A stretch of 50,460 bases of DNA, taken from a virus. The position numbers were made by a program, and so were the translations under genes. The notes below the pieces were generated by a model that saw only the letters and a list, made by a program, of their open reading frames with translations, did no database searches and had not been told where the DNA came from. This document shows positions 3,159 through 43,762 of this stretch, in pieces. Each line of letters begins with the position of its first letter. Within the stretch, counting starts at the first letter, position 1. Where the stretch lies: positions 1-50,460 of IMG/VR virus record IMGVR_UViG_3300035701_000048; one strand, written 5' to 3'.

Positions 3159-3163
3159 TTATA

Positions 3164-3589: not shown

Positions 3590-3597
3590 GAGGGTTC

Positions 3598-5844: not shown

Positions 5845-5870
5845 AGTGTCCATTTAGTGGGCACTATAAG
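5835..5870 (+). promoter_or_regulatory. Hairpin in the portal gene leader
   Basis: The inner stem AGTGTCC (5845-5851) pairs with GGGCACT (5859-5865) around the loop ATTTAGT, with one G-U pair. An outer stem CTTAT (5835-5839) pairs with ATAAG (5866-5870), leaving a 5-base bulge on the 5' side. No run of T follows, so it is not a standard terminator. It sits 20-30 bases before the portal Shine-Dalgarno site and may affect mRNA stability, processing or translation. Confidence 0.55.
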
Positions 5871-5901
5871 TAGGTGTTATTTATGAATAAAGAGGTGGTA
5901 A

Positions 5902-18527: not shown

Positions 18528-20114
18528 ATGGCTAGAAATCGAATCATTTATGGTTCACAAAGTGTATGGTGTAATGGAGAAATTTTGTACAGAGTGCAAA
18601 CTCTGGGCAGCACCACCACTTTTACCTCCGCTGATATCTTTGAACTAGGCCATCTAGATATCATTGACGTTGTTGATGACGTTCCCGCTGTTGCGGTAAC
18701 TGTGAACACCAACGCGTGGGGTGATGTAAAAACTATGGCCATTCTAGCTCAAGTTAAGCCTGCGAAGCTAGCGATGATCGCTACTGCTGCCGATAATAAT
18801 GCTAACTTAGTTGTGGTTTCTGGTAGTGCTTTGACAGAAACCGCTACTTATTTGCACGGTGTTTGTCTTGCGGACTTCGCTATTGTTTGCGGAAACTTGG
18901 CTGGAATTACTCTTTGGGCTCCTGTCCAATCAGAGTGTGATCTTGGAACACTGGCTACTGATATAGACCAGACACTGTTTATGGACGAAGTGTTCATGAA
19001 TAGACTTGAGATGGGTTTCACAACCGGTGCCAATGCCACTGAGAACTATGCAGGAGAAACTGACCAGAAGATGTGGTTACTTAATGCTGGGAAGTTTGTT
19101 AACTGGGAAGAAATTGCTTACACAACTATCACTGGAGCTGGTGGCATTCCTATTGCTTCCGGTGTAACCATCGCTACTATGAGTGACAACACTTATGCAT
19201 TTTTGAGAAGCGATGCTAATGGTGCCAGAGCTGTTACTTGGTATGACGCTGATCAAGACGAAATGATTAATGTTGCAGTAGTTTCAGGAACTGTTGCTAC
19301 TACCACTACTTTCGTCTACAATGAAATAACCAAGAAATTACTAAAACCTACAGGCACCTCTTATGCCTCTGGTGACAAATTATTTGTTGTTTATGCTGCT
19401 GATGGGTATACTACTACGCCAACTAATAATGTGTATTTTACCGAACTGGACAGCACCTATCGTCCAGACACTATTGGTGCTATTAGACAAGGTCAAGTGG
19501 AAATTTATATTGTTGGCAACAACGATGTCTCTTATGCTAATGCATGGAGATTGACTGGTTGCACAATCACATCCGACATGACTCGTACCCCATTGGCTGA
19601 ATTAGGACACTTAGGCCCCTATGACAGACCTATGACAATGCCTGTTCCTATTACTATCACCATCGATACAACCGCTGGCGATTTGGAACATTGGGCGCGG
19701 TTTGCTAATAGATATGCGTCTTATGCGGCCGATACAATGGTAGAAATAGATTTGGCTGATCTTATGGCATCTGATGACATGAGTTTAATTGTCAAGGTGT
19801 TTGCTCAGACTGACGAAGAAGCTAATGGAACTGCTGCTAGTCGAAAGCTTGCGGTAGGTTCTGATCTTATTGGTCAACAGTATTTCAATGATGGCACCGC
19901 TGCTAATTATGCTGCTGCTAATGAGCGTGAGTATGCTTTGAAAACCATTATTGTTGAGCATCTTAAGATGACAAACGAAGCCTACACATTGAATATGGGC
20001 GCTAACGCTACTCAAACATTCAGCTTTCGTTCAACCAACGATCTGTATGTAGTAAAGGGTGATGTGTCTATCGCTAATATTACTGGCGCTTTTAGAGTTA
20101 GAAGAAACGGCTAA
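18528..20114 (+). CDS. Major tail (tube) protein
   Basis: The 528-aa protein opens with N-R-I-I-Y-G-S-Q-S-V-W-C-N-G and then T-T-F-T-S-A-D-I-F-E-L-G-H-L-D, a strand-rich start seen in phage tail tube proteins. An internal E-L-G-H-L-G echoes E-L-G-H-L-D at about residue 355, hinting at two related halves. High Ala, Thr, Val and Asn content and more C-ending codons than its neighbours suit a highly expressed structural protein. It is followed by two chaperones and the tape measure, the normal tail order. Its size could also fit a sheath, but no separate tube gene is present, so tube is preferred. Confidence 0.78.
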   Translation: MARNRIIYGSQSVWCNGEILYRVQTLGSTTTFTSADIFELGHLDIIDVVDDVPAVAVTVNTNAWGDVKTMAILAQVKPAKLAMIATAADNNANLVVVSGSALTETATYLHGVCLADFAIVCGNLAGITLWAPVQSECDLGTLATDIDQTLFMDEVFMNRLEMGFTTGANATENYAGETDQKMWLLNAGKFVNWEEIAYTTITGAGGIPIASGVTIATMSDNTYAFLRSDANGARAVTWYDADQDEMINVAVVSGTVATTTTFVYNEITKKLLKPTGTSYASGDKLFVVYAADGYTTTPTNNVYFTELDSTYRPDTIGAIRQGQVEIYIVGNNDVSYANAWRLTGCTITSDMTRTPLAELGHLGPYDRPMTMPVPITITIDTTAGDLEHWARFANRYASYAADTMVEIDLADLMASDDMSLIVKVFAQTDEEANGTAASRKLAVGSDLIGQQYFNDGTAANYAAANEREYALKTIIVEHLKMTNEAYTLNMGANATQTFSFRSTNDLYVVKGDVSIANITGAFRVRRNG

Positions 20115-20467: not shown

Positions 20468-21220
20468 ATGGCTGAAATAACTAAGATTGTTGAAGGACGA
20501 AGAGAATTTAAGGATCCGGTTTCCGGAAAATCCTACTTTGTAGCTCCCCCAACCGCGGACGATATAAGAGGAGCTGATTGGCAGTATAGTAAAACCTATA
20601 CTAAATGTTTGATTGAGGGCATTACTACTGCTGCTGAAATGATGGACATTCTACTTAGGAGGGGTGTTGTTGGGACAGAATTTGAACAGCGACAGAAAGA
20701 ATTAACTGATTACTTGTCTAAAAAAGTAGAAGAGTTAAGATTCGCAGAAAGTATTGATCAGAAGCAAGAATCTGCTATGGCTGTTGCAAACGCAAGGTCT
20801 GAATTGTTTAGTTGGAATCAACGATTAAATGGACCAATGGCTAATACGTGCGAACAAATGGCGGATGATGCCAGACTTGAATTTCTTACGGCGTCTATAA
20901 TTCAGGATACCGAAGGAAAGCGTGTTTGGGATGCTTATTCGGATTTTCTCACCGAAAAAAATCAAAGACTTACTATGAGAGCTCGTTTTGAAGTTATGCT
21001 ATTTTTACAAGGTTTGGAGTCTGATTTTCTAGAGAGAACTCCTGAAGCCATGGCAATTAAAGAAGTAGAAGCTGAGATTCAAAAAAGAGCTACTGACATA
21101 CTAGATAACATAAAGAAAGAGATGGACCAAAAGACATTGGAGACGGAAGCACTTGCTGTATCTGAACCAGCGTCAGAAGCAACTCCTAAAAAACGCAGAT
21201 CTAAGAAAGCTGCGGAGTAA
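20468..21220 (+). CDS. Tail assembly chaperone 1
   Basis: The 250-aa helical protein follows AAGGAGG. Residues about 135-200 (R-L-E-F-L-T-A-S-I-I-Q-D, V-W-D-A-Y-S-D-F-L, then R-A-R-F-E-V-M-L-F-L-Q-G-L) match the corresponding part of the next gene, so the two are paralogues. The tail is Lys/Arg/Ala-rich. Phage tail chaperones coat the tape measure before tube polymerisation, and they lie directly between tube and tape-measure genes as here. The next gene begins three bases after the stop in the same frame, so no frameshift joins them. Confidence 0.72.
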   Translation: MAEITKIVEGRREFKDPVSGKSYFVAPPTADDIRGADWQYSKTYTKCLIEGITTAAEMMDILLRRGVVGTEFEQRQKELTDYLSKKVEELRFAESIDQKQESAMAVANARSELFSWNQRLNGPMANTCEQMADDARLEFLTASIIQDTEGKRVWDAYSDFLTEKNQRLTMRARFEVMLFLQGLESDFLERTPEAMAIKEVEAEIQKRATDILDNIKKEMDQKTLETEALAVSEPASEATPKKRRSKKAAE

Positions 21221-21223
21221 TTT

Positions 21224-22243
21224 ATGGAATTGACGTTTGAAGATGTTGAAAGATACTTAGAGCAAATTTTCACTCAAAGTAAAATTCTAGAGGTGAGTCC
21301 ACAAACTCTTATTTTTAAATTTCCTGGTATATCTGTTAGAGCGAAAGCCAAATATATTTATGATCAGGAATACAAAAGGTCTTTGGAAGAAGGTCTTTTA
21401 TCCACCGAAGATATGAAAAAAGTTTTAGAAACTCGTAATTTAATTACGGCGGAAGATAAACAGACTTTAGTATCTCTTAAGAATAAATTAGCTGCGCAAA
21501 AAATTCTTTTAGCTAAGACAACTAAAGTTAAAGCTAATCAAGAGCGCATTAAAAACATTATTCATGATTTGGAAGATCAGATAAGAAGAATAGAATTGAA
21601 AGAACGCAGCAAGCTTTCGATGACCGCAGAAAATAAGGCAGAAGAATCTAAATTATTATTTCTTTGTTGGGCTTGCACTTTTGAGTTTTATAGTGATCAT
21701 TTACTCTGGACAGAATTTGATCTTTTCTTGCAAGAACGTGATATTGAATTTAGACTTAGGGTTATGTCTGAATTTATGCTTTTTTATAGTGGTATTTCGA
21801 CATCCATTGTTAGAACGATAGCGAGAAGTGGATTGTGGAGAATTAGATATGTGACGAGTTTAAAAACGTCGGAGCCCCTTTTTGGGGTTCCGACTTCTGA
21901 ATACACAAATGATATGCTGAATTTGGCTTACTGGTCGCACTATTATCAGAATATTTATGAGATGCTTCCTGATAGTCAGCCACCAGAACATATTATTGAA
22001 GATGATGACGCATTAGATGCTTACATGCACGATTATTATGAAGAACAAAAGCGGGATAATGTTTCTAGAAGATCTCGCAAATCTCCTGGACGTATGATTT
22101 CAGCCTTTGATGCCCAGGAAGTAATTGTGACTAGAAGTAACGAATTGTATGAAGATATAGAGTATGATAAGCCGAAAGAAGCACAAGCTATCAAGGACAG
22201 GGTTCTAATTAAAAAGAAAGCGGGCGGGCGTTCCAGTCGTTAA
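21224..22243 (+). CDS. Tail assembly chaperone 2 with candidate frameshift site
   Basis: The 339-aa protein shares with chaperone 1 the pattern L-L-F-L-C-W-A-C, L-W-T-E-F-D-L-F-L-Q-E-R-D and F-R-L-R-V-M-S-E-F-M-L-F-Y-S-G. It has a coiled-coil stretch near residues 85-140. A distinct C-terminal part follows (L-W-R-I-R-Y-V-T-S-L-K, then L-A-Y-W-S-H-Y-Y-Q-N-I-Y-E-M-L) with a basic end. Exactly at the border, codons AGT TTA AAA form the slippery heptamer T TTA AAA (21859-21865), followed by an 11-bp hairpin (21868-21894). A -1 shift would end at TGA 21898-21900 and give a 225-residue short form. The chaperone role comes from order and homology to its neighbour. Confidence 0.72.
   Translation: MELTFEDVERYLEQIFTQSKILEVSPQTLIFKFPGISVRAKAKYIYDQEYKRSLEEGLLSTEDMKKVLETRNLITAEDKQTLVSLKNKLAAQKILLAKTTKVKANQERIKNIIHDLEDQIRRIELKERSKLSMTAENKAEESKLLFLCWACTFEFYSDHLLWTEFDLFLQERDIEFRLRVMSEFMLFYSGISTSIVRTIARSGLWRIRYVTSLKTSEPLFGVPTSEYTNDMLNLAYWSHYYQNIYEMLPDSQPPEHIIEDDDALDAYMHDYYEEQKRDNVSRRSRKSPGRMISAFDAQEVIVTRSNELYEDIEYDKPKEAQAIKDRVLIKKKAGGRSSR
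21859..21894 (+). promoter_or_regulatory. Candidate -1 programmed frameshift signal
   Basis: TTTAAAA at 21859-21865 is in the phase T TTA AAA of the chaperone frame. GTCGGAGCCCC (21868-21878) pairs with GGGGTTCCGAC (21884-21894), with one G-U pair, around TTTTT. The two-base spacer is short, but opening three or four basal pairs gives the usual 5-6 bases and still leaves a strong stem. The shifted frame ends after 11 codons. Confidence 0.55.
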
Positions 22244-22304
22244 TCCCACCTAAATTGGCAAGGAAAGGTCTTCTAATTTTATTGCTTGAGCTATTCACCA
22301 TTTT

Positions 22305-22318: not shown

Positions 22319-25300
22319 TTGCCACCAACCGATACCTACAAGATTCAAATTGAATCGATCAAAAATTCAGAAGCGGATCAGCCTACAAAAAATTTAGCTG
22401 AGAAAGTAACTCGCCTAGCTAGTGCTATGGAAAAACTGGAATCGGTAATGGAGAAGGTTGCCCCTATGATGGGCGACACTGGTAGAAGTGCGCTCGACAC
22501 CATCAGAACTGTTACTGGAATAGCTCAGTCCGTTGAAAGGGTTTCTAATAAGATTCAAGATACGGTTCAAGATTTGGATAATGAGATAAAAGGAATGAAA
22601 CGCGATGTTCCTTTAGCCATTTCTCAAGCTAAACAAACCGGTCAAATCGCTATTCAAGCCGCTCGGGATTTTCCTTATGGTAAAGCCATTTTAGATGCTA
22701 TTAAAGATCTTGCTAACACTTATAGACAATCACAAACTTCTCCAACTTATGCGACAGGTAGAGACGAGGTTCTTTCTAGTATATCAAATTTAGTGCGAGA
22801 ATTTGTTAAAAGAGATCGTGATGTTGGTAATATATTAGAAGCTTTGAAAAGCATGACTCAAGCTATGGGTATGGGTAAAATCGGTGCTCCAGCAGGTCAA
22901 CCGGCACTCGCACTCCCATCCACAATCATTGATATTAAAGATTTTAAAGTCGTAACACAAGAAAATATCAGTGCGCCTATTAAAGAACTTACTACAGCTT
23001 TAAAAAGAGTCGAAACCAACACTCAAGGAGAAATAAGTAAAGGTACTAAAATAGATAATAAAGGAATAACTGATGTTCTTAATGCGTTGGTAACGGCTGC
23101 TAGACAGTTAAAAACTGAAACCCCAGAAAAAACTGGAAACATTTCGGAACTTACAAGCGCTATAAAAGAATTAACTGTTATTGTTAAACAACTGCCTGCT
23201 GATGCTCTCCAAACAAGGGACGTTATTTTAAAACAGGTTAAATCGGCTTTAGCCGATACTACCATACCTACTAAACCACATGTGGAAGCCGTAGCCCCAC
23301 AAGCGCAATCTTATGTAGTCGCTCCTACTACAACTAAAATTCATGGTGATGTTGATTTTCTAGGCCAAGCACTTAAAAACATGGGCGTAGAGTTCGAGAA
23401 AATAAAATCCGAACTAAAAGATAAAATTGTAGTCGCCATAGATTTAGAAACTTCACAAATGAAAGACGCTGGTAAAAAAGATACACTCGGTAACGTACTA
23501 AAAACAGCCGATATTATAACTCAAATTGCTACTTTAAAAGGCACACTAGATCAAATACGTTCTGGAACTGCTACTAAGCAAAACATATATGTTAAACCTC
23601 CAGAAGGTATAAATACAGAAAAAGCCTATAACGACCTTATTGGAACTGTCGGTGAAGCCAAAATTGAATTGGGTAAATTATTATCTGAGGGTGTTAATGC
23701 AAAAGACGCTATGTCTTCGTTGGCGGAAACATTAAAAGACGCTGATGCTATAGTAGGACATAACATAGCTGGATTTGATCTTAATGTTATAAACGACCAG
23801 TTTAAAAAACTTGGGATGGACGTTAATCTATCTTTAAAAAAATATGTTGATACTGTGGATTTATCGAGATCGAATTTTCCAAATAGAATGGTCAGTTCTA
23901 TTACTGGTAAAAGGCTTGATACATCGCAACCTCATGCTTTACCACAGATAGAGGGAGACTTATCGTTGGCTGGCCACAAATTTGCAGGTGCAATGCACGA
24001 AGCTTCGCATGATGTTGAAGTGATAGGCCCACTTTTGAATGCTTTTGAAGAAGGCACAAAAGAATATAATGCTATGATGAAAAACAATACCGCGCAGATG
24101 AATGCAATTACTGCTGCATCTAGAGCGGCTGCTGGGCATTTCAAAGAAATAGGTGACACTTCTGCTAGATTAAGTCAATCTATGGCTGCTGCATCTGATA
24201 TTACTGATGAAATGATACAGGGTGGAGCGGATTATAATAGTAAACTTCGAAACGCAACTAGAAGTATCAGTGCTATGGAAGTTATGGGCGATCCAGTTAA
24301 AATGCGCTCCGCTTTACAAGCTATTCAATTCAAAGAGCAGGTTATTCACCCATCAAGTAGACCAGAAAATTTTGGATTTGCCGGGCCGGAAGGATCTACA
24401 AAAGATCAAGCTACTCTTTCTTATCTATCTGGTCTTTCAGAATCATTAAATAAATTACAAACCGGAATTGTAGAAGCTCTTGAACGTGGAATGACCAAAG
24501 GTGTTCAGATTCTTAAGACTAAGGGTGAATCTTTTCAATTAGCCCCAGGCGGTAGAGAATGGGAACTAAAAATTGCAGATGTAAGAGAACTACGAAAAGC
24601 AGTAACTGAAACATATCATAAATATTCCGCTCCAGGTTCATCAGCCGAAGAATTGGTGGATAGTTATAAAAAGGCTTTTGTTGAACGCCGCTTATCTACT
24701 CCAGTTCCAGCCTCTGAAATGGCAGCTTCAGTAGTAACAACAATAAGAGGTCTGACTAAAGAGCAGGCCAGTTCTCTCGGAGAAGATGTAAAAAATATTT
24801 TCGACAAAATACAACAAAGAAGTATAACAACCGAAGATGTTGAAAGTAACGCCGGATTGTATGGACTTTATAAAAACGTATCTCTTAAATTAGAATCTGA
24901 AAAGTCTGTAGAAGGATATATGAAGCGTTTGGCTATTCCTGCTGCGCGTGTGTCACAACAAGGTATTCCTATTTTAGAAACCAAGTATGGAGCAGAAAAA
25001 GGATTAGCTAATTTTGCTACTATTACCACAGGTTTAGAGAAGTTAATCGAAGAGTTGAAATTATTAAATACTCCGCAGATGGATGTTGAGAGATACAGCA
25101 GACAACTTTCTAATATTCCTTTACGACCGGCAACCGGATCTACTGGAGAAGCCGCTGCTGCAAAATTGGCGGAAGAGTTGCTTAGTGAAGTATCTGGTCG
25201 AGGCGGTACTAAACTTATTAGTGGCGGTTATGCTTCAGCCGCTACACTTAAAGAAGTAGATCGTGGCACCCCTCTTGAAGAAGCTCGTACCAAAGTCATG

Positions 25301-28300
25301 GGCTATGGCGCGAAAGGACTGGAGTCTTTAATAGAAGAATCTGGTAAATTGGGTGTCACAGCGCTTGATGTAGCTAAAGCTTTAAGTGAAATAAAACTTG
25401 ATAATTTCTACGATATGCTAAATCAGCTTCTTCAAGCTGGTAAAGTACCGTATTTAGAAAAACAAGCAGCGAATATTCATAAGTTTGATAGAAATCTTCG
25501 AGAAGTGTCGGGTGTAATTAACGATGTTATGGGCTTGATGCCTATGATAGAACCCGGTCGTCCACTAAGAAAGCCGTATGATGCGGCATCCTTGAGAGTA
25601 TTGACTAAGCCAACGGAAGAGTTGCGCCCAGCCGATGCTAAGTCTCACATAGTAGAAGCTAATTTACTTTGGAAAGATATGGCTGAAAACTCTAAAAAAT
25701 TGGGCGAAACCATGATTCAGGGCAAAGAATACATGGGGCAACCGATTGCGTCTTCGTTGGATTTAAGTGATGCTGCTAGTTCAGAATTAAAGCAATTTAA
25801 TCTTGAGTTTGGAAGTCGTTTACAATCTATAGATAAAACTATGATTGGAATGAATACGTCTGATTTACGTGGGTTATCTCCATTCAAGGATTTTAGTTCT
25901 ATTCAAAGACAGGTATCTTATATTACTAGTGGATTAACTGGTGGTATTCCTGGCGGCGGAAAATTTGAAACACCGTCTCTAGTAAGTGAACGTGAACGTA
26001 AATCCATTGAATCGGGTCAGTTTGGTACCGAAGGTTATGGTCTTAATGTTTTAACTGAAATAAGAAATACCGCTGGTACTTTTGAAGACCAAATCATGAT
26101 TGCTGGAAAGTTAGCCAAAGCATTTACGAATATAGTCCAAAGATTAGTAGAGCCTGGCACTAAAGTAGACATAACAGAGATTGAATCCGGAACTCAGAGA
26201 GTATCGTCACGCGCAAGAGATGAATTAAATAAACAAGTAGGCGATGTAGCAAAAGAATTTCAGACTATTTTAGGAGTTCCGGAGAGATATAGAGGTCGCG
26301 CTGATGTGGCTGAAATAGGTAAAGAAGTTGAGACGGTGATGAGAGAGCACCGTGGACAGACAATTGATGTTCAAACTGCTAAGTTAACAGAGACTTTCTT
26401 AGATTATTTTGGTAGAAAATTAGCCACTCGTTTTGGAACAAAGGGAGTTTCTATAACACCAGAAACAGCTCCTACTGAATTTAGAGAATATCAAGAGCTT
26501 GCTAAACTAATGGCCAGTGGAATGAAAGCTAAAATTGTTCCAGGCGAAGGGCTTGGCTATGCTCCTGTACCTAAGAGCGCCGGAACTTTGGTTTCTGAAA
26601 TGTTGTCAGACGCTTTTAAAGGATTACATACAGCCGAAGCCCCAAAAGAATTACACGATAAGTTAATTGAATCGGGTAATAAATTTATATCGGACTTATT
26701 TAAAGACACAAGATTAGTATCCGAAGATGAGGCCAAAAAGCAAACAGAATTATATGAACGAGTTAATAAAATTTGGACTGAAAAATTTGGCGAAGAGCTT
26801 CCTACAGGACCTTCTGGGATTAAAAAAATACGAAAATTATATGAGACTAATGAAACGTCTGCCGAGAACGGTATAATAGAAGAGGGCGAGTCGAGATCTG
26901 CTTATACAATGCAGCCTATAGAGGCTAGAATTAGTGCTCGTGGTATAGCAAAAAGAGGATTAATGCCAGAAGTTTTAGAGGCTATAATTAATAATTTAAT
27001 TGGAAGTAGGTCTGGAACTACTACCATTAAAGATACCATCGATGAGAAAGTTTTGACTGGAAGTAAAGAAGGACTTGCTACTATAAATGAATATTTAAGT
27101 AATTTAGGTTATGAAAAATTTACTGATATAGGTGAAATGGTTAAGAGACTTAAATCAGAAAATCCTAAACTTACTGATGCAGACATTGATAAATTAAAGG
27201 AATATGAATCTAATTGGTCAGTTTATACCACTATTTTAGATGAGTTTGGTAAAAAAACACAGGCTTTAGTTGCTCCTAAATTTTTACAAATAATAGAAGA
27301 GCCTCATCTGTTTGGTGAATGGACTCCACGCGAATTGGATAAAGGTGTTAAGGGTGCCAAATTAGATTATCAATCTTTCTCTGCATATGCTGGAATTTTT
27401 GGTGAAGGATCATCAATGCTTAAAGAATTAGCTGGATCCACTTCTTTGAATTCTAAAGAAGGGTGGGAATTAATTAGGGCATTCCAATTGATGGATCCGA
27501 CAATGAAGAATTTGAAGGAAAGTATTCTAGAGGGTTTACCTAAAATAGAGCTTTCAGACATTACTGAAAAATTCGAGGGCGCTACTGGAACAGTAAAAGA
27601 ATTAAAAGATACCATTCTAGATATAGCTAAATTTCCAACAGCTATGTCTCTTAAAATACCTGGTGCTAAGTCTGGAACTTATGATCAGATGTACGTTCCA
27701 GGACCAGCTCTTCGTGGAACATACCAAGAAGATTTGATGGGTAGAGCAGCTCCTACAAACGTTGCACGTTATTTAGCAAATCTAATAAATTCTGCAAAAG
27801 ATGTGGAAGAACTGACTGGCGCAGCTGCCAAAGGAAATATAGGATTAGGTGAGGAATTCCAAACCAAATTTGCTTCCACGCTTAAAGCCGAGTTAGTTAA
27901 AGCTCTTACTGATTTAATGAACAGATTTAAAGATATGGAAAAAGCACCTACTCCACAAAATATTGCTTTTATGGAAGAGATGATCAAGAAGTATAAGGGC
28001 GGTTTATCTACTGAACGCCCGGTGTCTCCTATTTATCAAGAGGGGCTTGGAACATCGGAAGCGGAAGCGTTTGAGGCGTTTGCTGGTAAAACCAAAGGTC
28101 CTAAAAAATATAGTACTACTATGGGCAGGCTTTCTGATTTGTTGATTGGCGCCGATCCTGAATCTCTTAGACGAGAAGAAGCTCGTATTAAATCGGCAAC
28201 AAAAACTTATGAAGAAAGTGGTAAAAAGCGAATTCCTTATGAGGTACTTTCAGAATCAGAGAAGGGGCGTTTAGAAAGCGGCACCGGTTTTGAAACCATG

Positions 28301-31300
28301 ATGCAGCAACATTTACGTAGAACTCAAGAGCGTGGTAAAGCTAAGTCTATATTTGAAGTGGAATTAGAAGCTTATAATCTTGATGCTTTTACTAAAAAAA
28401 TTGGAATGAGTCTCCAACAATCAGTTGAAGAAGCATTAACTACAAAGATGGAGTCTTTAAGCCGCGCTAAAGTGGCTTATGCTGAAGCGTTAGGCGAAGA
28501 AGTTTTTGGAAAGAAGAAAGGAATTGAGCAAACATTTTTTCAAAGAGTGACTCCAGCTGTTACAGGTAAAGCTGTTTCAGCTGTTACTGATAAAACCGAA
28601 GAGTTAATGACTCTTTTAACAGTGCTTAAAGATAATGAAATAGCAGGTTTAGAAGGACTGTCGGGTAGTTTAACAAAAATTATAGCGGGTCATAGCGAGT
28701 ACGTAGCTAAATCTAAACAATTAGGACTTCCAGTATTAAAGGAAGGTGAGATTGGTCTGCCTGGCGAAATGGCTAGAAAGGTCCCAGTAGAGGGAGGAAA
28801 TCTAGCTGATCTAATTAAGAAGCAACAAGAAACTTATGTAGAATCTATTAGATATCCTTTTACTGGAACGTTGAGTGTTCAACCACACAAAGCTAAATTG
28901 ATGGAAGACATTCTTCCTGAAGGCGGCAAGTACGGTAAATACTCAATTGCAGTTCCAGGCGCGCCTCAGCTTGATTTGCCAGAACTAAAGAAAATAATTG
29001 ATACTCTAAGAGAGTATATTGGTGTAGAGCCTAAAAAGAATTTGCCTAGTAATGTAGTTCCTTTGATGGAGCAGCGCGAAAAAGCTTGGGCTGAAAATAC
29101 AGATGCTGGTGCTCAGAAAGTCGCTGAGTTGACTAAAAATATAGAACAACTTCTCGCAGTAGTTGATAAGGCATCTCCAAAATTTATAGACATGGAGCAA
29201 AAACTAGATTTTGATGGTGATGCTTTGTTTGTACATACAGGGCAATTAGAAAAATCAAGAGAAGAAATTAAAAAACATTATGATATGTTAGGATCTGATG
29301 TTACGGCTGTTAGAAATCTTTTTCGATCGGTGTTTTCAGCTGTGAAAGACACAGATGTAGCAAGTTTATCAGAGATGTCTCAGGTTTTTGCTAAGAAACA
29401 TCCAAAAGCGAAGGGTTTTGAATTTCTTACCAAGCCCTATGTGACAGAAGGCGCAGAGAATCTTTCGATGCCAGAAGTTATAAAAGCTTTGCAAGAATAT
29501 TCTCCTGAAGCTGCTGGAAAGAAACCTCAAGAGTGGATGACCAAGAATTTAACATCTAATGTGATGCCACAAGTATTTGGTCGTTTAGGTGTTCCGGAAG
29601 GCGAAAGGCCTGGCTATCTTACTAACATGAAAGTAAGTGAGGAAGGATTACCAACTGTTGGTGGAGAAGGGCAGTTTGTAAAACGTATTAATGAGTTAAC
29701 CGAAGAATTATTAAGACGACAATTAGTTGAGAAGAAATATAGTGATGCTATTGAAGGGCAGCTTTTTAAATTACATACAGGTATTACAGTAGAAGGCATT
29801 AGTAGAATTGCTAGAATGACGGAGTTAGAAACAGGTTTTGGCCCTGGTTTAGCTAAAACTGGTTCAGGCGGGCCTCCGTCAAAAGAATTTTTGTCTAGAT
29901 GGCCTACAGAGAGTATGGCTCTTGATAAAAAACCCGCTGAAGCGTTTGCTGTACGAATAAATGAGATGCTTAGATTTGTGATTCAAAAAGGCATGGATGT
30001 AAAGCACGCTGGTGTTGAAGCAGTAGGCCAGAAAATAATTGAAAATCTCAATAAAGCTACTGGTGCTCAGAAAATTAAAGAAGCAATGTCCAGTATGAGC
30101 GAGCAGTTTGGTGAACTTGCAGATTTCAATGCACAAATCTCAAACGAAGTTAGATTGAGAGTAGGTAAACTTTCTACTCCACAGTTGAAAGAAGAACTTA
30201 AATTATTTGAGCCGGACATAGACGCCGCTAAATTATCTAATGATCGTGAAGAATTAATTAAAGGAATTATAAGTCATGTGGATATGAATGCGGTGTTTGA
30301 AGAGATATTCAAACAAATTCAATCCAACGCTATTAAAGGATACACTGAGCAGTTGGATAAACAACTTAGAGACATGCCGGCTGGTCCTTCTAAAGTAGCT
30401 TTATTGCGACAAGTTTCTGCCGCTGGTTCAAATGAAACAGTAGCTAGACAAAAAATAAAAGAAGAGTCCGAAACACCCGAAGGTATTAGTGTTTTAAAGT
30501 ATATAACCACACCACTAAGCCCGCTATATAAAATGCGGACTTCTATGGAAACTATAGGCACAGCAGCGCGCCGATCTGATGTAAAACTTCCAGAAGAAGA
30601 TTTAGGCTTACCAGCTACCGAAGAGGGTAAAAGATTAGCTAAAACGTTTGATGAAGTAAGGAAAGCAGCGAATACTCTGACTTCTGGGTTGGAAACTTCG
30701 GTTAGAGTTCCTACCAGAGGCGTGCATACGATGATGGTAGAGAGTGCGATAGAGAAGCGATACAAAGATCTTAAAGATCTGCTTGAGTTTTCTAAAGCGT
30801 CTAGTGAAAGTCCGACTAGTTTTCCGTATGCTTTTGCTGGAATATCCGATACCAGCAAAATGGCGTCTAAAACCTGGAGTGAATCGATGGGTGCAGCTGG
30901 AGTTTCTGGAGCTGGTTTGGTTCCCCCAGGAGAAATGGATATTACTTCTTGGATAGACCAGTTATTGAAAGCTAAAAAAATTGCGGAAGAAAAACTTGAG
31001 GAGTTGTCAGAAAAAGCAGGTCTTCCACAGATTTTACCTGAGGAACAAGCATTAATTGGATATGAATTTGAAAAACAGCACGGCAAACAGATGTCTGCTA
31101 ATGTTAGAGACTATGTTCAAAGAGGAGCTGCAGCTAAAGGTACTACGCTTTCCGAACAAGATTTACAAGCTCAAACAAATGAAATTTATCAAACCGCATT
31201 GGATGTTACTAAATTCCAAGCTACCATAGTGGAACAGTTCAGACGAATAGATGAAATGATAAAGACTGTTCCTGTTCAAATGGCCTACCTACGTGAAGCC

Positions 31301-34300
31301 TTTCCAGCTTTTGGATTGGATAAATCTACTCAAACAGCTGCACAATCTATACAAGAAGCTGCAGCGGATCACAGAACAACGTCAGAAAAAATCGAAGAGT
31401 ATTGGCAGAAGCAACGTGGAGTTTCTAAAGAAGCTGGTAAAGTTGTAGAAAACTCTATTAAAGGAATTGGAGAATCGCAAGCTGCTGGGCAAGATTTTTC
31501 TGGTGGGCTAAGAACTCCATCCGGAGTTTCTCAAGCCATAGACAAAGCCGATTTGGAACGAAAGCGCCGATCATTGCAGTATTTAGAAACAGTGGCTAAA
31601 GGTGGCGAAACATCAACTAAACTAGGCTTTGTTTCTGCTAGTCAGATCCACGCTGGTGGAGCTTATGGTGGTGGAACCCAAGAAGAAGCTATTACTAAAG
31701 CAATGGGTGGGGAAGACGCTGGAACCTTTGCTGAAGCTACTGCTTTTAGAGGTGGGGCTCTTCATAGACAGATCCAAGCCGAGTACGTTAAAAAATACCC
31801 AGGAACTAAAATTGAACAGTATGTAGAAGATGTAGAAAACAAAATAAGCGGTCACTTTGACATTCTTTACGAAGAAGCTGGCCAAAAAATATTAACTGAT
31901 ATTAAAACTATTTATAGCACGGCTGTTTTTGATCGCCTAAAAGAATTGTCAAGCGAAATAGAAAATCGCAAAATAACTGTACAAGAAAAATTAGAGGAAT
32001 TAAAATCTAATAAATCTATGTCTGATTTTGATAAAGATATAGTTAGACGACTAGAAGATTATTTAAGTCAAGTAAATGTTTACTTAAAGCATGTTGAAGG
32101 CGCCACAGGAAAAATTTTAGGCGTAAGTCAATTTAATACAGCTGAAAGATTTGAAATTCCAGTAGGTAAGTTTGATCCTGCTAGATTTGAAAAAGATTTG
32201 TCTGTGGTAAATAAAGCAAGAGGTGGAGTTCCTACTGGAACAGTTGCTACCGAAACCGCGCCTCAAGCTAGTGCGGCGGAAATTCTTAATAGGATGAATC
32301 CAGAGCAGCAAGATCGCTATGATAAATTAAGCAAATCATATATGGAAGATATTAGACGAGCACAAGAGCAAGGCTTGTTTAATAAAGGTGAACAGTGGTT
32401 TGCTACAGGCGGCGCTGGAGGAACCGAAAGTAAACGACATATTTTAGCTCCGGGTGAAGTTCCTAGTTTTAAAGGGACATTAATGGGTGCTGGTGGGGCT
32501 GGGGTTGGTGGAATGCCCCCAATTCCTCCAACTGGTGGTGGTGGCGGTGGAGATGATGATGATTTCTATAAGAAATTAAAAGAACTTCTTGATGGATTAA
32601 ATAAAAGAATTAAAAATGTTAATGAAATTCAAGTAGAAGAGATTGTTAAATTAGTTGAATACTATGAACAAGCGGGGATAGCAGCTGACGCTGCGCGTCA
32701 ATCTGGAAATGAAGATTTAGCTGGTTCTTTCGATGTAATACGTAAAGAAATCGAAGCTCTGATGACAAGTAAAGGCCAAGCCCTAGATTCTGCTAAGAAA
32801 ATAGCGGATTATTATAAACAATTAAATCAGTCCCTATCTGCCAGTGCTGGTGCTGGTGGGCCTTCTGATTTTGGTAGATTAGGAATGCCGCAGATTGAAA
32901 GAAACGCGCCAGAGAGGCCGGAAGCTAAACACCAAAACTTACGTGCCATGTGGGAGTCTTCGGTTAAGTACTATAAATTGGCGGACACTACGGAATTAAA
33001 CAAATTTCCTGGTGGTATTAGCGATATAATTAAATCTACTGCTGAACAAGGTCCTACACCAGACATAACTAAACAAATAAGAGAAGCCATTGCTGGTCTT
33101 CCTGAAGGACAACAAGGTGGAATGCGTAGAATTTGGATGTTCTACAAGAAGGCAGTGGGAGAATACTATCTAAAGCGCTTAGATGAACTAAAGCAAACCA
33201 TAGAAGAAGAAGGCGATTCTTCTAAGGCGCGACAAGCTTACGCGGAATACGAACAAGTAGTTGATAAGTACATAAAGAATATTGAATCTACTTTAACTAA
33301 GATGAGCGACATTTATACTAAAGTTGGTCCATCTGGAGTTAAGGGGGAATGGGTAGAACCTGATTTAGCTAAACTTACTGGTATGTATGAAGACCCCAAA
33401 AAATTAGCTGACCGTATTAAACATGATTATAAAATGAAGGCTAATGTACAACCTCTTATGGATACAATGGTTGGGGATTTGGATGCCACCAAGTTGGATC
33501 AGATGGCAACGCCTATAGATAAAGTAAGAGAAGCTTTTAGACAGATAACTGCGGAAAAGGCTGATATTAAGCCTTTGCTTGCTGATCTAGAAACTTTTAA
33601 ACGTCTAGGTCCTGAAGCGGTGCAAGCTTGGGATTTTAGTAAAATTTCTCAGGATGTGACCGAACTTAGAGCTGGTATGCAAGCGTTCCATAGATTGAAT
33701 TTGTCTGGTTATGGTGGATTGGGTGAGGGATATACTGAAGTAGTTCGTAAAAATGTTGAAGACACAATTAAATTATTGAAGCAACTAGAAAACTCCGTAT
33801 CTTCAGGTAATTTAAAAGCTTCAGAGTATAAACTGACTCCGGTTCCTCAATTTTTAGACACCGAATCGCAGAGATTGCTACATCGTAGAAATGTTGTACA
33901 ATTGCGTGAGACTTTTAGAACACCTACAGAAGCTGGTGGGCCACAACCAGGAGCAGCAATTAATTATAAAATGCGCATCATTGACCCCGCTTCAAAACAA
34001 GAAATAGAAAATGTTCGCGTGGAGTTTAATAAATTAGGTGAATCGGCAACTACAGCTGGAGTTAAGATTGGACTGTTCTCAGAACGATATGAGAACATGC
34101 TTACTAATTTCCAGGACAGAAGAGGAATAGGTCAAGCTTTTGAACGTGTTATCAGATGGGGTCTCGCTAGTAATGTAGTTTATGGTTTAACTGGCGCGCT
34201 AAATGACATGATACAGACCATATCTGATACAGAACTTGGAATGGCTAAGTTACGCCAAGTTATGAGCCCATTAGAAACCGATTTTACTAAACTTCAAAAT

Positions 34301-37300
34301 TCTGCTGTGCAGTTTGCTAAAGAGTATGGAACATCGGTTAATAAAGTATTAGAAGGTATGATTGTTTATGCTCAACAAGGTATAAATCAAAGAGAAGTTG
34401 TGGATAGAACTCAAACTTCTATGATGGCCGCTAATGTAACAACATTAAATGCTGCGGATGCTACCGAAGCTTTAACGGCTGCCATGATGAATTATGGTAA
34501 AGAAGGCGAGACAGCCATGAGATTTTTGGATTCATGGACGGAAGTTGAAGCTAGACATGCTGTTACTTCGAAAGATTTAGCTGATGCTTTAAGACGTACT
34601 GGTGCTGTTGCTAAGACTGTGGGTGTTACTTTCGATCAGTTAAATGGTATAACAACTGCCATCGGAGAAACAACCAGATTTACTGGAGCAGAAATTGGAA
34701 CCGCTGAACGATATATTTTTAGAAGATTAGAAACGGGAAAAGGACCAGCAGAATTATCCAAGGTAGGTATTGGTATTACTAGTAAAACAGGTGACTTGAG
34801 AAGTGCTTTTGATATTTTAGGCGATTTAGCTGGAGCTTGGGACAAATTAACAAATTCTCAGCAACTAAATATTGCTGCCGCTATAGGTGGTTTGCGTCAT
34901 TTTAACTCATTAATTGTTTTAATGGAGAATTGGAATGAAGCTTTAATTGCAACTCAGCAAAGCATGGATTCTAAAGGCGCCGCAGAAAGACGAAATGCCA
35001 TTGTAATGGATACGTATGCTAAGAAAATTGAGCAGGTAAAAGCAGCTGTTTCCGAATTACAAATTCAATTTGGTAGTGCTTTCTTACCGGTTGCTAAAAC
35101 TTTCTTAGATGCCGTTCGTTCTATAGTTGAAGCTTTTAGTAATATTCCACCATGGGTTAAAGCTACTGGCGCAGTACTTGGCGGCTTCTTTGTAATGTTG
35201 GCCAAGGGAAAGGATATTTTAGATTACTTTCATGGAATGTTTGGTGGGTTTGGGTCATCTGTAAAAGACGCTATTTCCACAGCAGTCCTTGAATGGAAGA
35301 AAGGTTTATTTGAAATTTCTGGATTTAAGTCTCCTGGATTAAATATTACTGGGCTAAAGAAAGTCACTGAAGTAGGCCACGTTTCTGAATTAGACACAAT
35401 GATGGGCAAGTTGGTTTATAAGATAGCTCCTATTGGTAGAGCGTGGAATAGTGTGCTTACAGATGTATTTAAAGGCGCTAGTACTGTCACTGACAAATTA
35501 GCTGATATGTTTGATTATATTGCTGGTAGTTCTTTTAAATTAAAAGGTGCTTTGAGTTTGACTGGTGTCGGATCATTTCTTGGTGCTGGTCTAGCAGGAT
35601 TTGGGGCTGTTTCAGATGTAGCGGCCTATGGATTGGATAAAATTTCTCAACTTTTAGGAATGACTGCGCAGCAAACTGCTAAATGGACGCAAGAAAACAC
35701 CGGTCTTTTAGCTACTTTTGGTCCATTGATAGGATCGTTTATTATTTTGGAACCTTTGCTTGCTAAACTATGGAATGGAATAAAACGATCGGCTATGTCT
35801 TCTAAGGATTATCAAGTTTCATTGGCGGATACTAGACGACAACAATCTGATCAACTTAGTGCTATAAGAGAATTAGCTTCGGGATATGATATATTAGAGA
35901 AACGATTGAAAAACGCTCAGAGAATGGGTGATCCTAAAGTTGCAAAAAAAGCCATGGATGAAGGTACTTATAAATCACCTACTAGGGAAATTGGAAATAT
36001 ATTAGAAGCTACTGTTGAATATAGTAATAAGTTGGCTGATAGTAATGATAAACTAGTTTTAAGTTATGATAAGTTTGGTAATGCTGCTCTTAAAGGTGCT
36101 GACAGTCTTAAAACTTTTATTAAGGTAGCGGAGACTTCCAAAATAGGTGAAATGTTCAGCACAGATTTAGATATTTTGAAAAAACATCTAGAAGATCTTA
36201 CAGATGTTGGTTTTGGTGAAAAACTTAAGCGTGAACTAAAACGATTTTTAAATGAGATTCCGGGATTTGGTCCTCAGATGGCAAAAATGATACATGTTTC
36301 ACCTGCCAAAATGTTAGAAGAAGAGACTGGTAATATAGATAAATTACTTTCTGCCAGAGCTCGATATCCCATGACCACAGCTTTTGATAAGACTATAAAA
36401 GAACGATCAGAATCATTAAAAAAGTCTAGAGATGAATTTCAAGATACGTATAAAGAGTTTAAGAAAATTTTAGCTGAACTTCCTACAAAGGGTTTAAGTA
36501 GTGGGCAAATTCAAGGAGCTCTTACATCGCCGGAACTACAAGAAGGCTATAAATTAATGGCTCAAATGGAGCCAAGACTTAGAGTTACCCCAGAAAGTAA
36601 TAAGACGGAACGTATTCCTGGATTTTGGAGCAATTTGATTAAGGGTGCAACAGGGCATGATATTGCTGCTAGACAAAAAGTACAATGGCAAGATGTTATG
36701 GGCATAGAAGTAATGAAGCGTTTAAATCCTGATCAGCCGTTTGATTATACTAAAAAATTAACGCAGGGATTGTTTATGCAATCTGGGGTGCAACCAAGAA
36801 AAGTGGGAGACACAGTATTTTCAGGAGAACGTGTTTTCTTTAGTGATAAAATAGCTGAGAAGTATAAAATAGCTGCTAACCAAGGTATTTTGAAAATAAC
36901 AGAAACTGCTAATGGTTTTATGGAAAGATCGGTAGAAGTTTTTGATACGGCGTTAAATAAGATGCGAAAACTTCCTTATGGGGCTGTGTCCAAATATGTT
37001 GAAAATATTTTTCCAATTAAGGCTATTCAGGAAGATTTATCTGAAAATTTAGAAGCTATGAAGGAAATGGTAGTTGGGGCAGAGGCTGGACTTGTAGGGC
37101 TAACGGGCAAACAGTTTAAGAAAGATTTTCCTTTGGGGGCAAGGTTTTTTAGTCAGATACCCACGAGTACTCTTATTCAGAGTACCAAAGGATACCAACC
37201 TGGAACAGGGTATGGGGAAATTCCATTTAAACAAGATTGGCCTAAATTTTTAGAAGAGTCTTTTATTAAACCAATGCACACTTATAAGCTAATGACTGAC

Positions 37301-40300
37301 CAGTTTACTGAAAATAAACGTTCTGAAACCCCTTTGATTGGTGCCAAGATAGAAGATCTTGAAAAGCAAGCCGATTTGATTAGAAATAATCAAATTGTTG
37401 TTCAATTTATGGGTGTTTTTGAGGATTTGAATAAAATTTTGTCGGAAGGAACTCGCACACTAGAACACAATATTATGGCAGAGCGCACAAGATTTGAATT
37501 GCTTACTAATGTTACTGGTACTTTAGCTGGGCTTCCTAGAGATTTGAAAGAGCTTGATTTGGGTAGGAAGGCGATAGAAGAACTAACTCCTCAACAACGA
37601 ATGGCTCTTGATGAACAGCGATTACCGCCTGAACGTAGAAATTATTTGAACACTTCCATGGCAATTCGTAGTAATGAAATGCGTCGAGAAAGTGCAGTAA
37701 ATGAAATTGTTGATATACGAAAAGCTATGCTAGATATAGGAGAAATAATTAATGTTTCTAGAGGATTTGGAAATGTATTAACCCCCGAAGAAATGGAAAA
37801 ATATACTGAAAATATTGCAAAAACTGGTGACAAAGCGGCTGGAATGCAGTTAACATCTTTAAATAGCATCGATAAAAATACGGCGGATTCTAGTGCTAGC
37901 TTAAATGAATTGAATGCAACTATGAGCGATGTAATGGGTGGATTTAAAACTAAATCTTTTGAAGCCGTAAAAGAAATGTCGCCCAGATTTATAAAAAGCG
38001 AAATGGAGCGGGTAGGGCCAAAATTAGCTGATGCTATTAAAGAAGGTAATATTCAACGAGCTCAAAATCTAGATCAGTATATGGGCCGTTTGGTTCAAGA
38101 ATTAATTATGAAAATAGGTGTAGGCCCAGCTTTACAGCAATCACAAAATATTGGAGGAATGACAAAAAGTCCGGTACTTGATTTTGCTCGTCGAGCGTTG
38201 GGCGTCACTACATACAAAGAATTTGGTACTAAGTTAAATGAAGTTTCTCCCGGCGTGATTGAAAAACCATTGTGGAAAGAATTAATGGCAGCAGAAGAAA
38301 AAAATAACGCGACTTCTATTACGAGTAATAAAACATTACAACAAGTATTAATGGTCTATAGTTTAATGAATTCTTTTGAAAAAACAGCTGCCGATAAAAA
38401 TACGGGTCTTTTAAGAGAGCAACTAGCTAAACTTGAGGACGTTAAAAACACAGCTAAACCAGGAACTGATTTAACTGGCATAGACAAGCAAATTACAGAA
38501 ACAAATGAAAAAATAGCTAATAGTGAACAAGACGCTAATGCTAGGTTGGCTAAAGAATTGCTTGGGCCTATAGCTTTAGCTTCTGAAGAACTTTTAAAAC
38601 AGATGGGGCTTTCTGAAGGAACAATTCGTACTATGGGTAAAATAGTTGGTGGAGCTTATCTTGGTGGTAAGTTATATGAAACCATGACTGGAGTACCAGT
38701 AGGCGATAAACTTCAAGGACTTTATGAAAAGGCTGGCAAAGGAGGAAGTTTTGCTAAAGAAAGAGCAGCGGCAGAATCTGCCATTAAGAAAGAAGGCAGT
38801 ATTTTAGATCCCGAGACAAAAAAGAAATTCGATGCGTTACTCAAGGAACAAGACGAAGCCGCTAAAAAAGGACCAAAAAGTTTATTTGAAGAAGCGAAGG
38901 AAAAATATAGAGCTGATCGTGAAAAGAAGGCGGAAGCCCCAGTAGATAAACTGTTAAATGAAACTCAGGATCAAACTACTATTTTACACGGCATTTATGA
39001 AAACACTAGAACATTGGCTGACAAAACTACCGATGCCGCTTCCGCTGTTCATGGTGTTTTACAAGCAAACAGACCCGAAGAGAAAAATTCTCGTGATGCT
39101 ATTATATCCAGTGTTGATGAATTGCGGAAAGAATATATTACTAGAAATCCGGGATCTCTTACTGGTAAGTTGCTTCTTGCTGCAACTGTAGTTGGTGCAA
39201 CAGGTTATGTTAAAGAGATCGGTGCAATGCGTAATATTTTGAATACTCTTGGTGGTCGCGCTGCTAACGAGACCGGTATTGGTGAAAAATTTGCTAAAGA
39301 AAATATTCCTACATTGGAAAAAGCTATTAGTGTTCATTTAGATGAAATTTTAAAGCGCGCTGGAATTCCAGAAACTAAAAGGCAACTAATTAGTGAGGTT
39401 GCCGACCCAAAAAAACGGAATGAACTTTTTATAGCAGAATTAAACAGAGTGGCAGGTCTTTCAAAAGAAGAGCTTGATAGATTAACCGCGGTAGTAAAAG
39501 ATGAACGTAGCGCTCTTAGTGAGTTACCTACAAAATTAGCTACGGCCATGGAAGACGCTATTAGAAAGGGTGTGCGTGATGTATTTCCATTTCTAACTCG
39601 AACTAATGTTAAAGCTCTCGGAGGCCCACTTAGGGAGGCTGGATTAGGGGAAGGAGCTATTCCAGAAATTCCTGGTATAAAAAGTCTTTCAGAATTAACA
39701 GGATTAGAGAGAGCCGTTGTGGAATCGCGAAAAGTAGGTAATACTAGTTTAGAAAAAGAAATTTATGCTTATAAATCTCTTTCTGCTCAACGCCAAAATT
39801 TTATTGATAAACAAACTGTTGATTTAATAGATATTGGTAAGAAGGACGAGCTGTTTAATGCAACCACTGATCCTACAGAAAAAAGTTTAATCAGTGTAGA
39901 AATAGAATTGTTAAAAAAATCTATCAAGGACACCGCAAAAAACATAGATGAAGTAACTCTTGCTTTAGATAAACTAGCTAAAGTTCCAGTAGTAAACGCT
40001 TTAGGTACATTGCTACAAAGTTTTGAAAAAATGAAGCGCAGTTTTATAGACACAGAAGTGCTTACGTCTTTTAAAAGGTTGACTGACGCATCTGAAAAAA
40101 CTAGACTCGGTGGGAAACACCCATTGTCCCCGCAATATCCAACTTTTGAGATGCTTAAGATGGGCGTCAAAGGTGAAGATCTATTCAAATATAATCAATT
40201 CGATCAACAGAAAATGGCTTTGTTAGCACGTGGTGGACAGATTAACTTGGATGAGTGGTCTCAAATAGAGTTTAATACAAAAAAAGCTGTGATGCAACAT

Positions 40301-43300
40301 GAGCAGCAACCAGAAGAGGACAAGTTGAATCGACAACAGTCGGCTGCGGAACAAACTCGTCAAATGCTATTGGAGGCTCAAAGAAATATAAATCTTCTTC
40401 CTGAGAGTGAGACTAAGATAAAAGGATTGGCTGAAGTAGAGGAGTTGGTTAATTATCTAGAAAATCAGTTATACAATAGTGGGTTTAAACGTACAGTAGC
40501 AGATGAGTATTCAGGAGTTACAAGAGAAGAATACCTTGGTGTTAGTTTAAGTGGATTTGAAACACGAATTAAAAATATAATATCTAAATTTGGCCCAATA
40601 GACGCGAAGACATTGACAGAGCTTGAGAAACAAACTGGTATATTAACCAATATAGAAGACGTTTTGAGAAAGGCTTACAATATACCAAAAGAAATATCAT
40701 CACCTATTTTTCCATATCAAAGCTCTAATATGGAATCATTTAAAGGAGCGGATTATACTGTTAACGATCGAGATGAAGCTTTACGGAAGAAGATCAGTGA
40801 AAGTATGCCATCTGAGGCTAGATTTATTGGTAGGGAAGCTAGTGCTAGACGTGGTGGCAAATCGTTGGGTGAAGAAATAGAGCAAGGTTCACAAGCTTTT
40901 GTTGATTTTGGTTCACTAATTAAAAGGAAGTGGAATGAATTGGGTGTATATTTAAACGCTCCTAATGCGGACGAACCTCCTATACGAGTTTTAACTTTTC
41001 AGGATGAACTCGACAAAGCTGGGGCAGCTATAACCGAATTTAGCAACATTGTGTGGGAAAAGGGAGGTAATGCGATAAAGACTGTTTTAGAATATTTTGC
41101 GCAACCCGATCTTATACCTCCGCAATGGCGCAATAATTATGGCGATGATTATGTAGCACCAGAGGGGCAACAAACAGGCGGCCAGATTGTTGGCCCTGGT
41201 GGTCCTACAGATGATGTAATTCCTATAATGGCTAGTTCTGGGGAATATGTTATTAAAGCAGCCTCTGCTAAAAGATTAGGTAAAAACGCATTGAATTATA
41301 TTAATACCACTGGTCAACTACCTAGACTCGCTGGCGGCGGAGATCTTGATTATTTTTATAACCCAGAAAATCAATTTGATGAAAGCGGCTATTTTCCAAA
41401 ATCGGAACAGGGAGCAGCTAAATCACAAGGGACTTCCTTTGTTGACACCTGGTCTAGAATTTTAGGAAAAGCCGGAGCTGGTGTTGGTGAATTTGCTGGT
41501 AATATTACTGATTATTGGTCAGGTAAAAGCCCAGATAATTTCTTACTTCCGAATATGTCTATGTGGACTAAGGAAGAAGAAATGGATTATGCTAGACAAA
41601 ATCCTAATAAATATGCTCTTACCGCAACTGCTGCTAGTTTTATGCCAATGGCAAAATATGCTTATTCACCCACCGATGTGGAAGAATTTAATGCATCTAG
41701 CAGAGGCTCGAAATTATTGTCTATAATGTCAGAGACTCCTGGTAAAATAATGGGTGGGGGTAAAGCAGCTGCCAATTTGGGAAAACTAGGCCAAGGAGTG
41801 GGAAAACTAGGCCAAGTTGTAGGAAAGGGCGCTAAAGAAACATATGAATTGGGACAAAATTTTGGCGTTCAATCTGCTTTGAATGTCTCAGGTAAAGTGA
41901 TTAAAATAATGGATTTTATTGGTGTAGGTGATCCCGCATTATTAAAAAGCAAATTAGCTACTAGAGCAGCGGAGTCATTGGAAGACTATTTTTATAAAGT
42001 TGTTGATAAGGTTGGTATAAAGGCTTTATTTGATAAAAATATGTTTGGTTACATGTTTTTTGATTCTAAAAATGTGTCTGCTTCCAAGAAAGCAGTGAAA
42101 GATGCCATTGATCAGATAGCTGAATTTACAAAGTATGTAGATCCGCATGACATTAATTTTAAAAAATTCTCAGTAGGTACTAGTGAATTTCTAGGGGATT
42201 ATTCACAAAAAACTGGTACAATAAGATTAGGTATGCAGTCTTTACTTAACCCATTACAGACAGTAAAAGATTATGCAGCTAGCACTGTTAAGAAGTCATC
42301 ACCATGGCATCCATTTACACCACGGGCTACGGACGTATTTAAATCCACCATGTCGCATGAGTTGGGGCATGGATTTACTAAGCCAGGTCCTGGTGCACAT
42401 GTTTCTGGTTCAGCTGAGAAAATGGTTGGTTTGGGTAAAAATACGTATGAAACTACGCAAAAATACTTGGATACACAAACAACAAAAGCTGTGTCTGGTA
42501 CTGGTAGATTTAAACGGCTTAAAGACGTTTATGATTTTTATTCGCAATATGAAAATGAAGCTCGTGCCATAAAAGAAGTGAAGGATAGCATAGCTGAGTT
42601 GACGCCTAAAGTGTCTAGCCGTTATGGATTAACAAATGTGGATGAAAAGGTAGCTACTTTAATAGAAGGGGCAATGCACACACCCATGAAATATGCATTG
42701 CCTGATGTTAAACAGGCGAAAAAATTACTTGGTATTCAATATGCTGAAGGCGGTTCAGTTATGCCTTCGGAATTAGTAGCTTATGTAAATAAGATTATGG
42801 CTCAGAAAAAGTCTGGTAAACTTATGGTAGGGAATTTGGTAGCTAAACAAGACGCTTCTGGTAAATGGACTTTTAGTAATGCCAATAGAATAGACGAATT
42901 AACGAGAGCTACCACAGAAGGTCGTCGTGATCCTTGGGAATTAATGAGTTCAGCAGCACCTTTTGGTTTAACTGGACCATCCGATATATCTAAACTTGGG
43001 CCAGCTAATGCGGCTGAATTTGCTCAGTCTGGTAGATATGCTTCTGTTGGTGAAGGTGATAATAAAGTGTTTGCTTTTAGAGACGATAAAGGCCAGTGGG
43101 TATTAAGTAATGTAGGAGATAGCATACATAAATATGGTCCGGCATCCTACGCTCAAGGCACGTCTTATGTTCCTAATACTCAATTAGCTATGTTACATAA
43201 AGGTGAGGCGGTTATTCCGGCTAAATTCAATCAAGGCGGTCAGGTTGGAAATGTTATAGATACAGCTGATATGGCTGACATAGGTACGCAAATTAGTGAT

Positions 43301-43762: not shown

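Follow-up and report, generated by a model that had tools for sequence, protein, structure and literature searches.

The closest described counterpart of the protein reported here is gp96 of the Thermus phage P23-45, in which a tape measure and an active virion RNA polymerase (RNAP) are joined in one chain of 5,002 aa (Chaban 2024, PMC10770324). Residues 327-1124 of gp96 constitute the active RNAP, which is found in virions as part of the full-size protein; gp96 binds the pre-early genes, and a second, non-virion RNAP of P23-45 (gp64) takes over from it (PMC10770324). P23-45 and P74-26 have tails longer than 800 nm, with a lumen of about 4 nm. At 0.15 nm per residue, the value used for all length estimates below, the 5,002 residues of gp96 amount to 750 nm or, once the 798-residue RNAP has been subtracted, to about 630 nm; given the observed tails of >800 nm, the RNAP stretch thus seems to be counted as part of the ruler. 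A literature search, with subscription papers and most preprints lying outside its reach, returned tape-measure/RNAP fusions from P23-45 and its Thermus relatives only. Single-chain two-barrel RNAPs within giant proteins are also described for phi14:2 (gp66) and other crAss-like phages, where they are believed to enter the cell together with the genome; they are not described there as tape-measure fusions. The giant RNAP of the N4-type phages belongs to the T7-like enzyme family, which is different from that of the two-barrel enzyme discussed below; these phages are short-tailed and their RNAP is no tape measure. In the Schitoviridae this RNAP is part of the virion, from which it is ejected into the cell (PMC12633501). 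With respect to orientation, the tape measure of phage 80alpha has its N-terminus at the DNA end and its C-terminus at the tip, and its fragmentation in virions has been reported.

The window, i.e. the entire stretch of 50,460 bases that was analyzed, is the IMG/VR record IMGVR_UViG_3300035701_000048 and, the record being linear, probably represents a fragment of a phage genome. Terminase and capsid genes are followed in it by the tube candidate, two small genes, a giant gene and further tail-type genes (Table 1). Beginning at 22286 or 22319, the giant frame stays open through 43762 with zero Ns and zero internal stops, and 21.4 kb without a stop is not a chance occurrence. The TTG at 22319 is preceded by GGGAGGA; residue numbers given here are counted from the upstream TTG at 22286 (7,158 aa) and are converted to the 7,147-aa numbering by subtracting 11. 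Apparent TTG initiation with a strong ribosome-binding site ahead of it was observed family-wide in the giant genes of complete relatives (e.g. L018, L022 and L026). The original prediction, made from the letters of the window, had described a single 7147-residue frame with a DEDDh exonuclease, an RNAP-like loop, a PD-(D/E)XK nuclease, a tape-measure core and a zincin motif, and all of these were located in the same order. We consider it probable that the protein is a tape measure with an injected virion RNAP, flanked by nucleases, as its N-terminal half, making it a larger and independently diverged counterpart of gp96.

Table 1. Features of the giant gene and its upstream neighbors in the window
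Feature	Position	Strand	Residues	Remarks
Giant gene, probable tape-measure/virion RNAP fusion	22319..43762	+	7147 aa	open frame, TTG start
DEDDh 3'-5' exonuclease-like domain	23378..24085	+	~365-600	Pfam RNase_T E 6e-6; PHROG 403 E 3e-11
Conserved region ahead of the RNAP core	24383..25852	+	~700-1190	alignment occupancy >0.9 over most of it
Predicted two-barrel RNAP core	25853..30085	+	~1190-2600	invariant motifs in 25 relatives
Barrel B motif GTFEDQ	26075..26092	+	1264	FED (1266-1268) invariant in 25/25
Barrel B motif GRKLATRFGTKG	26411..26446	+	1376	RK, TR, G and KG invariant in 25/25
Barrel A motif ESIRYPFTG	28841..28867	+	2186	R, P, F and G invariant
Predicted catalytic metal-binding loop LDFDGD	29204..29221	+	2307	D2308, D2310, D2312
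QKGMDVKHAG, candidate bridge-helix/trigger-loop element	29984..30013	+		Q, G, D, K and G invariant in 26/26
PD-(D/E)XK nuclease domain, RecB/Cas4/lambda-exonuclease type	31634..32230	+	~3117-3315	
Conserved tape-measure region	32933..37885	+	~3550-5200	full-length alignment; PHROG 4211 E 2e-72
TP901-type tape-measure core (PF10145, PhageMin_Tail)	34298..34891	+	4005-4202	E 5e-31
Single strongly hydrophobic, possibly membrane-spanning segment	35702..35764	+	4473-4493	hydropathy scan
C-terminal tape-measure motif GGxIVGPGGPTDDVIPIMASSGEYVIKAASAKRLG	41174..41365	+		PHROG tape-measure matches; conserved in relatives
HELGH, candidate zincin-like metallopeptidase motif	42356..42370	+	6691-6695	
Probable major tail tube protein	18528..20114	+		before the tape measure; internal duplication, self-comparison E 7e-4
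Two genes located where tape-measure assembly chaperones usually lie	20468..22243	+		ORFs 20468-21220 and 21224-22243

With the tape-measure core as the query, viral contigs yielded 16 loci at 46-52% identity, and when an alignment built on the polymerase region was used to scan IMG/VR, 37 contigs were recovered, which include these 16 loci. Polymerase and tape-measure core lie in one open frame in all 32 contigs that extend to the core, the remaining five of the 37 stopping short of it and being left out of this count. Both ends of the frame are present in eleven relatives, in which it spans 7,007-8,654 codons from stop to stop and has no stops inside. Of the domain order by which the original prediction proposed to look for relatives, the fusion of the RNAP to the tape-measure core recurs in every informative case. 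Among these relatives the TP901 core shares 45-59% identity with that of the window, and distances in the RNAP and in the tape-measure core correlate (Spearman 0.77; 0 of 2000 permutations), indicating that the two parts travelled together. Neither the RNAP nor the tape-measure core recovered any relative from 84,980 bacterial and archaeal genomes, and the RNAP region of the window had no match among 50,697 phage records. An assembly error or frameshift joining separate genes in the window contig, which the original prediction had named as the finding that would overturn it, has a negligible probability. In contig G002 (L003/L068) the giant gene is split over several frames, either by a real break or by a sequencing error, and sequence errors may thus occur in the collection; but the fused frame shared by all 32 informative contigs excludes an assembly join for practical purposes, and the 11 complete relatives are free of stops over their entire length.

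In the N-terminal half, a conserved block spans residues ~700-2830 of the full-length alignment, and its leading part, ahead of the polymerase core, has blastp matches in nearly all relatives. Within this block, the positions invariant or nearly so across 25 sequences are PF at 1199-1200, FED, RK..TR.G.KG at 1377-1387, R.PF.G at 2189-2194, QKLD[FY]DGD at 2305-2312 and, further on, QKG.D.K.AG, the last of which we tentatively regard as a bridge-helix or trigger-loop element. The DFDGD/DYDGD loop is present in 26 of 26 sequences, with F or Y at the second place. We take GTFEDQ to correspond to the β-subunit motif GYNFEDA and GRKLATRFGTKG to the β-subunit motif GDKLAGRHGNKG, while ESIRYPFTG and LDFDGD presumably correspond to the R-x-P and NADFDGD motifs of the β'-subunit, all in the same order. 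The RNAP-like loop of the original prediction is therefore present, but it is one motif within a conserved region of ~1,400 residues that contains both halves of the enzyme, and GTFEDQ, GRKLATRFGTKG and ESIRYPFTG had not been part of that prediction. These features point to a two-barrel RNAP; the AlphaFold model of the region, obtained with a 12-sequence alignment as input, is of low confidence (pLDDT 50.9), and for this reason the two double-psi β-barrel fold is inferred only from the sequence. Similarity of barrel A to known RNAPs is confined to a short stretch around DFDGD, where the Pfam β'-subunit profile PF00623 matches 16 of 25 records weakly and under its curated cut-off, and 12 of 25 members when each is scanned alone. 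A coiled-coil-like insertion is visible inside barrel A in the alignment of the relatives (window positions 28958-29185, residues ~2225-2300). Matches of the RNAP profiles to the kinesin KIF21A in the PDB were discarded, being due to this insertion, and Pfam matches such as YpsA, ATG17-like and Baculo_PEP_C were set aside as weak coiled-coil or chance similarities.

A link between the fused region and cellular RNAPs is provided by a stand-alone protein of ~1,090-1,180 aa encoded by three contigs, namely G005 (228 kb), G023 (238 kb) and one of 70 kb. G005 and G023 are the two longest contigs, and their stand-alone proteins carry both PF00562 and PF00623. In the PDB, the protein from G023 finds bacterial RpoB (E 7e-4), aligned exactly at GDKLAGRHGNKG, and a search of the related records with this protein recovers the polymerase region of the giant frames (E 1e-5 and weaker). 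In profile-profile comparisons with hhalign the fused and stand-alone RNAPs align over 432 collinear columns (E 8e-7, probability 92%), a control comparison with the tape-measure core giving a probability of 0.2%; barrel A on its own aligns with the stand-alone RNAP exactly on DFDGD (E 0.003). Since the stand-alone RNAP matches both, the fused region is linked through it to RpoB. The stand-alone RNAPs (L101, L102 and L103; G023 112994-116533, G005 ~23325-26588) with their β and β' signatures occur on jumbo-sized contigs of the same lineage, and they are probably its non-virion RNAP. A second RNAP was found in only these three contigs of the collection and was absent from scans of two close relatives, G019 and G020; of its own phage, the window covers a 50 kb fragment.

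The DFDGD domain might alternatively be no transcribing RNAP at all, but for example a primase, an enzyme that makes RNA without a template or a nucleotide enzyme acting in counter-defence. QDE-1 and other RNA-dependent polymerases are likewise two-barrel enzymes, the domain adjoins two nucleases, and the low confidence of the structural model leaves room for such a role. However, the presence of β-subunit-type motifs in barrel B and the connection to RpoB via the stand-alone RNAP, along with the precedent of P23-45, whose enzyme transcribes from a DNA template, make this quite improbable, and we retain the interpretation as a transcribing RNAP.

The comparison with gp96 itself is one of architecture. 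Both are giant tape measures with an N-terminal RNAP, a DFDGD loop and a tape-measure region behind it, and P23-45 has a second, stand-alone RNAP, as do the three contigs of the present family discussed above. They differ in several respects: the protein in the window has 7147 residues against 5002 in gp96; its barrel B has the β-like FED and GRKLxTRxGxKG motifs, whereas gp96 has a reduced LKG only; nuclease domains have been added; and a TP901 core and an HExGH motif stand in place of the M23 peptidase of gp96, which has no match to a Pfam tape-measure core. No profile similarity between the RNAP of the window and gp96 was detectable with hhalign (probabilities of 0.5% and 0.8%), and a comparison of the stand-alone RNAP with gp96 gave a weak link at barrel A (E 5.5e-5). 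The window protein is therefore best described as probably working like gp96 while standing outside the gp96 family, and the transfer of function from gp96 rests on the shared architecture. The fusion may have arisen separately in the two groups, or they may have diverged past detection. The original prediction had called both of its readings unusual, but the architecture has a precedent in gp96, which likewise fuses an RNAP to a tape measure; the prediction's comparison with the ~5000-residue tape measures of Thermus phages was one of length and missed the RNAP carried there.

Two predicted nuclease domains flank the RNAP region. In the N-terminal DEDDh domain, whose RNase_T score exceeds the cut-off, D386, E388, D498, H571 and D576, i.e. 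the four acidic residues and the motif III histidine, are invariant in 7/7 sequences comprising the window and its six nearest relatives (the window subclade), and blastp found no match to it in the N-termini of relatives outside this subclade. The exonuclease query showed C-terminal similarity in G011/G015 (E 0.007). The PD-(D/E)XK domain is far more widespread: its motifs in the window are GHFD at 3189, DIK at 3205-3207 and SQVN at 3261, and the residues H3160, E3177, D3192, D3205, K3207, Q3262 and Y3266, among them those of the D...DxK and Q-x3-Y signatures, are invariant in 29 of 29 sequences, the domain escaping blastp in a few lineages (L047, L056, L061, L063 and L065). It was modelled by AlphaFold at a pLDDT of ~80-88, and Foldseek matched the model to Exo5, LHK-Exo, lambda exonuclease, MGME1 and Cas4 with probabilities of 0.99-1.00, albeit with E-values of only 0.01-0.3 as the query included 1,000 other residues. 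The catalytic residues and fold are thus like those of RecB/Cas4/lambda-exonuclease-type nucleases, from which the domain differs in its location, with an RNAP on one side and a tape measure on the other. Near the C-terminus, a HE[LFVI]GH motif occurs in 5 of the 11 complete proteins checked; the region around it in the window has no match in Pfam, and we treat it as a candidate zincin-like metallopeptidase motif. Given these distributions, neither the zincin motif nor the DEDDh domain is a defining part of the family.

The conservation of these domains also bears on whether the polymerase and nucleases could be decayed or catalytically dead, serving as mere spacer in a long ruler. The coiled-coil-like insertion in barrel A and its weak similarity to known RNAPs might be taken as signs of decay; but with only about a third of the residues shared, the catalytic carboxylates and lysines of the RNAP, the PD-(D/E)XK and the DEDDh domains are all invariant, while the linkers beside them diverge freely, and the domains are very unlikely to be dead. 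At the level of sequence comparison, then, a single frame joining RNAP motifs and a tape-measure core to two predicted nucleases, whose catalytic residues are intact, has been kept across a phage lineage.

The C-terminal half contains the tape-measure core proper, whose PF10145 score of 108.5 bits lies well above the curated cut-off of 33.2. The core is shared with the Bacillus phages Slash, Staley, Stahl and Stills and the Lactococcus phage WRP3 at 27-30% identity over ~370-470 residues, and the terminase of the window is closest to those of the Slash/Staley group and the Microcystis phage MaeS (~29%). The giant protein very probably sets the tail length; if all of its residues count, the tail is predicted to be ~1.07 micrometres long, up to 1.3 micrometres in the longest relative and ~0.54 micrometres if the N-terminal half is discounted. 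A contractile-sheath gene was sought within the window and not found, so that a long flexible tail is likely. If the N-terminal half were folded cargo that is cut off or packed elsewhere, residues ~3540-7147 would set the tail, at the shorter of these lengths. The concentration of several enzyme domains in that half and the fragmentation of the 80alpha tape measure in virions are compatible with such an arrangement. We nevertheless regard it as unlikely, since the P23-45 RNAP is detected within full-size gp96 in virions, the tails of >800 nm fit all 5002 residues of gp96 better than 5002 minus the RNAP, and a ~4 nm lumen offers hardly any space for a folded RNAP. Ruler and cargo, between which the original prediction had left a choice, are probably not mutually exclusive, as gp96 carries an active RNAP within a full-size tape measure, and the protein in the window is most likely both at once.

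As ruler and injected cargo together, the protein might function in the following manner. During tail assembly the chain would be extended within the tube with its C-terminus, bearing the zincin and tip motifs, at the tail tip, and with its N-terminal half adjoining the DNA end; by analogy with 80alpha, whose N-terminus sits at that end, the polymerase would come to lie beside the leading DNA end. Upon infection the protein would be injected, refold in the host and transcribe the pre-early genes. Where the DNA enters, nucleic acid of the host or the phage is the probable target of the PD-(D/E)XK and DEDDh domains, this being the least certain step, and in some relatives the stand-alone two-barrel RNAP would take over later, much as gp64 does in P23-45.

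We found no earlier description of this family in the searchable literature, and it appears to be a larger variant of the gp96-type fusion with nucleases added. Fusion of a tape measure to an RNAP would thereby change from a peculiarity of a few Thermus phages to a recurring strategy, shared by no fewer than 37 other phage contigs. From the nucleases that have been added it seems that the cargo of a tape measure can extend beyond a polymerase. A more far-reaching proposal, which is possible but as yet rather doubtful, is that the entire lineage of long-tailed phages carries a pre-assembled takeover kit on its ruler, with an RNAP closer to the bacterial β type than gp96 and fused independently of P23-45, co-injected nucleases and tails of 1.05-1.3 micrometres; in that event the nucleases would clear away or process nucleic acid where the DNA enters, and the tails would be the longest known. 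The architecture raises the questions of how a folded enzyme passes through a tail tube of ~4 nm, whether enzyme domains count toward the length of the ruler, and by what means DNA entry and early transcription are coupled.

Certain neighboring genes deserve mention. A scan with the gene downstream of the giant frame (43762-46023) gave no match, and the two small genes immediately upstream of the giant gene match no known family; from their position they may be tape-measure assembly chaperones. The internal duplication of the tube candidate recalls the two-domain tube protein of P74-26, which forms trimeric rings. An HNH endonuclease gene (15160-16059), probably a homing element, lies within the head-tail cluster and overlaps the next frame. 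Beside the capsid genes are two tandem paralogues of 134-135 aa (9041-9445 and 9545-9952) with the common start MPQAILTGKSMPK, which are possibly decoration proteins.
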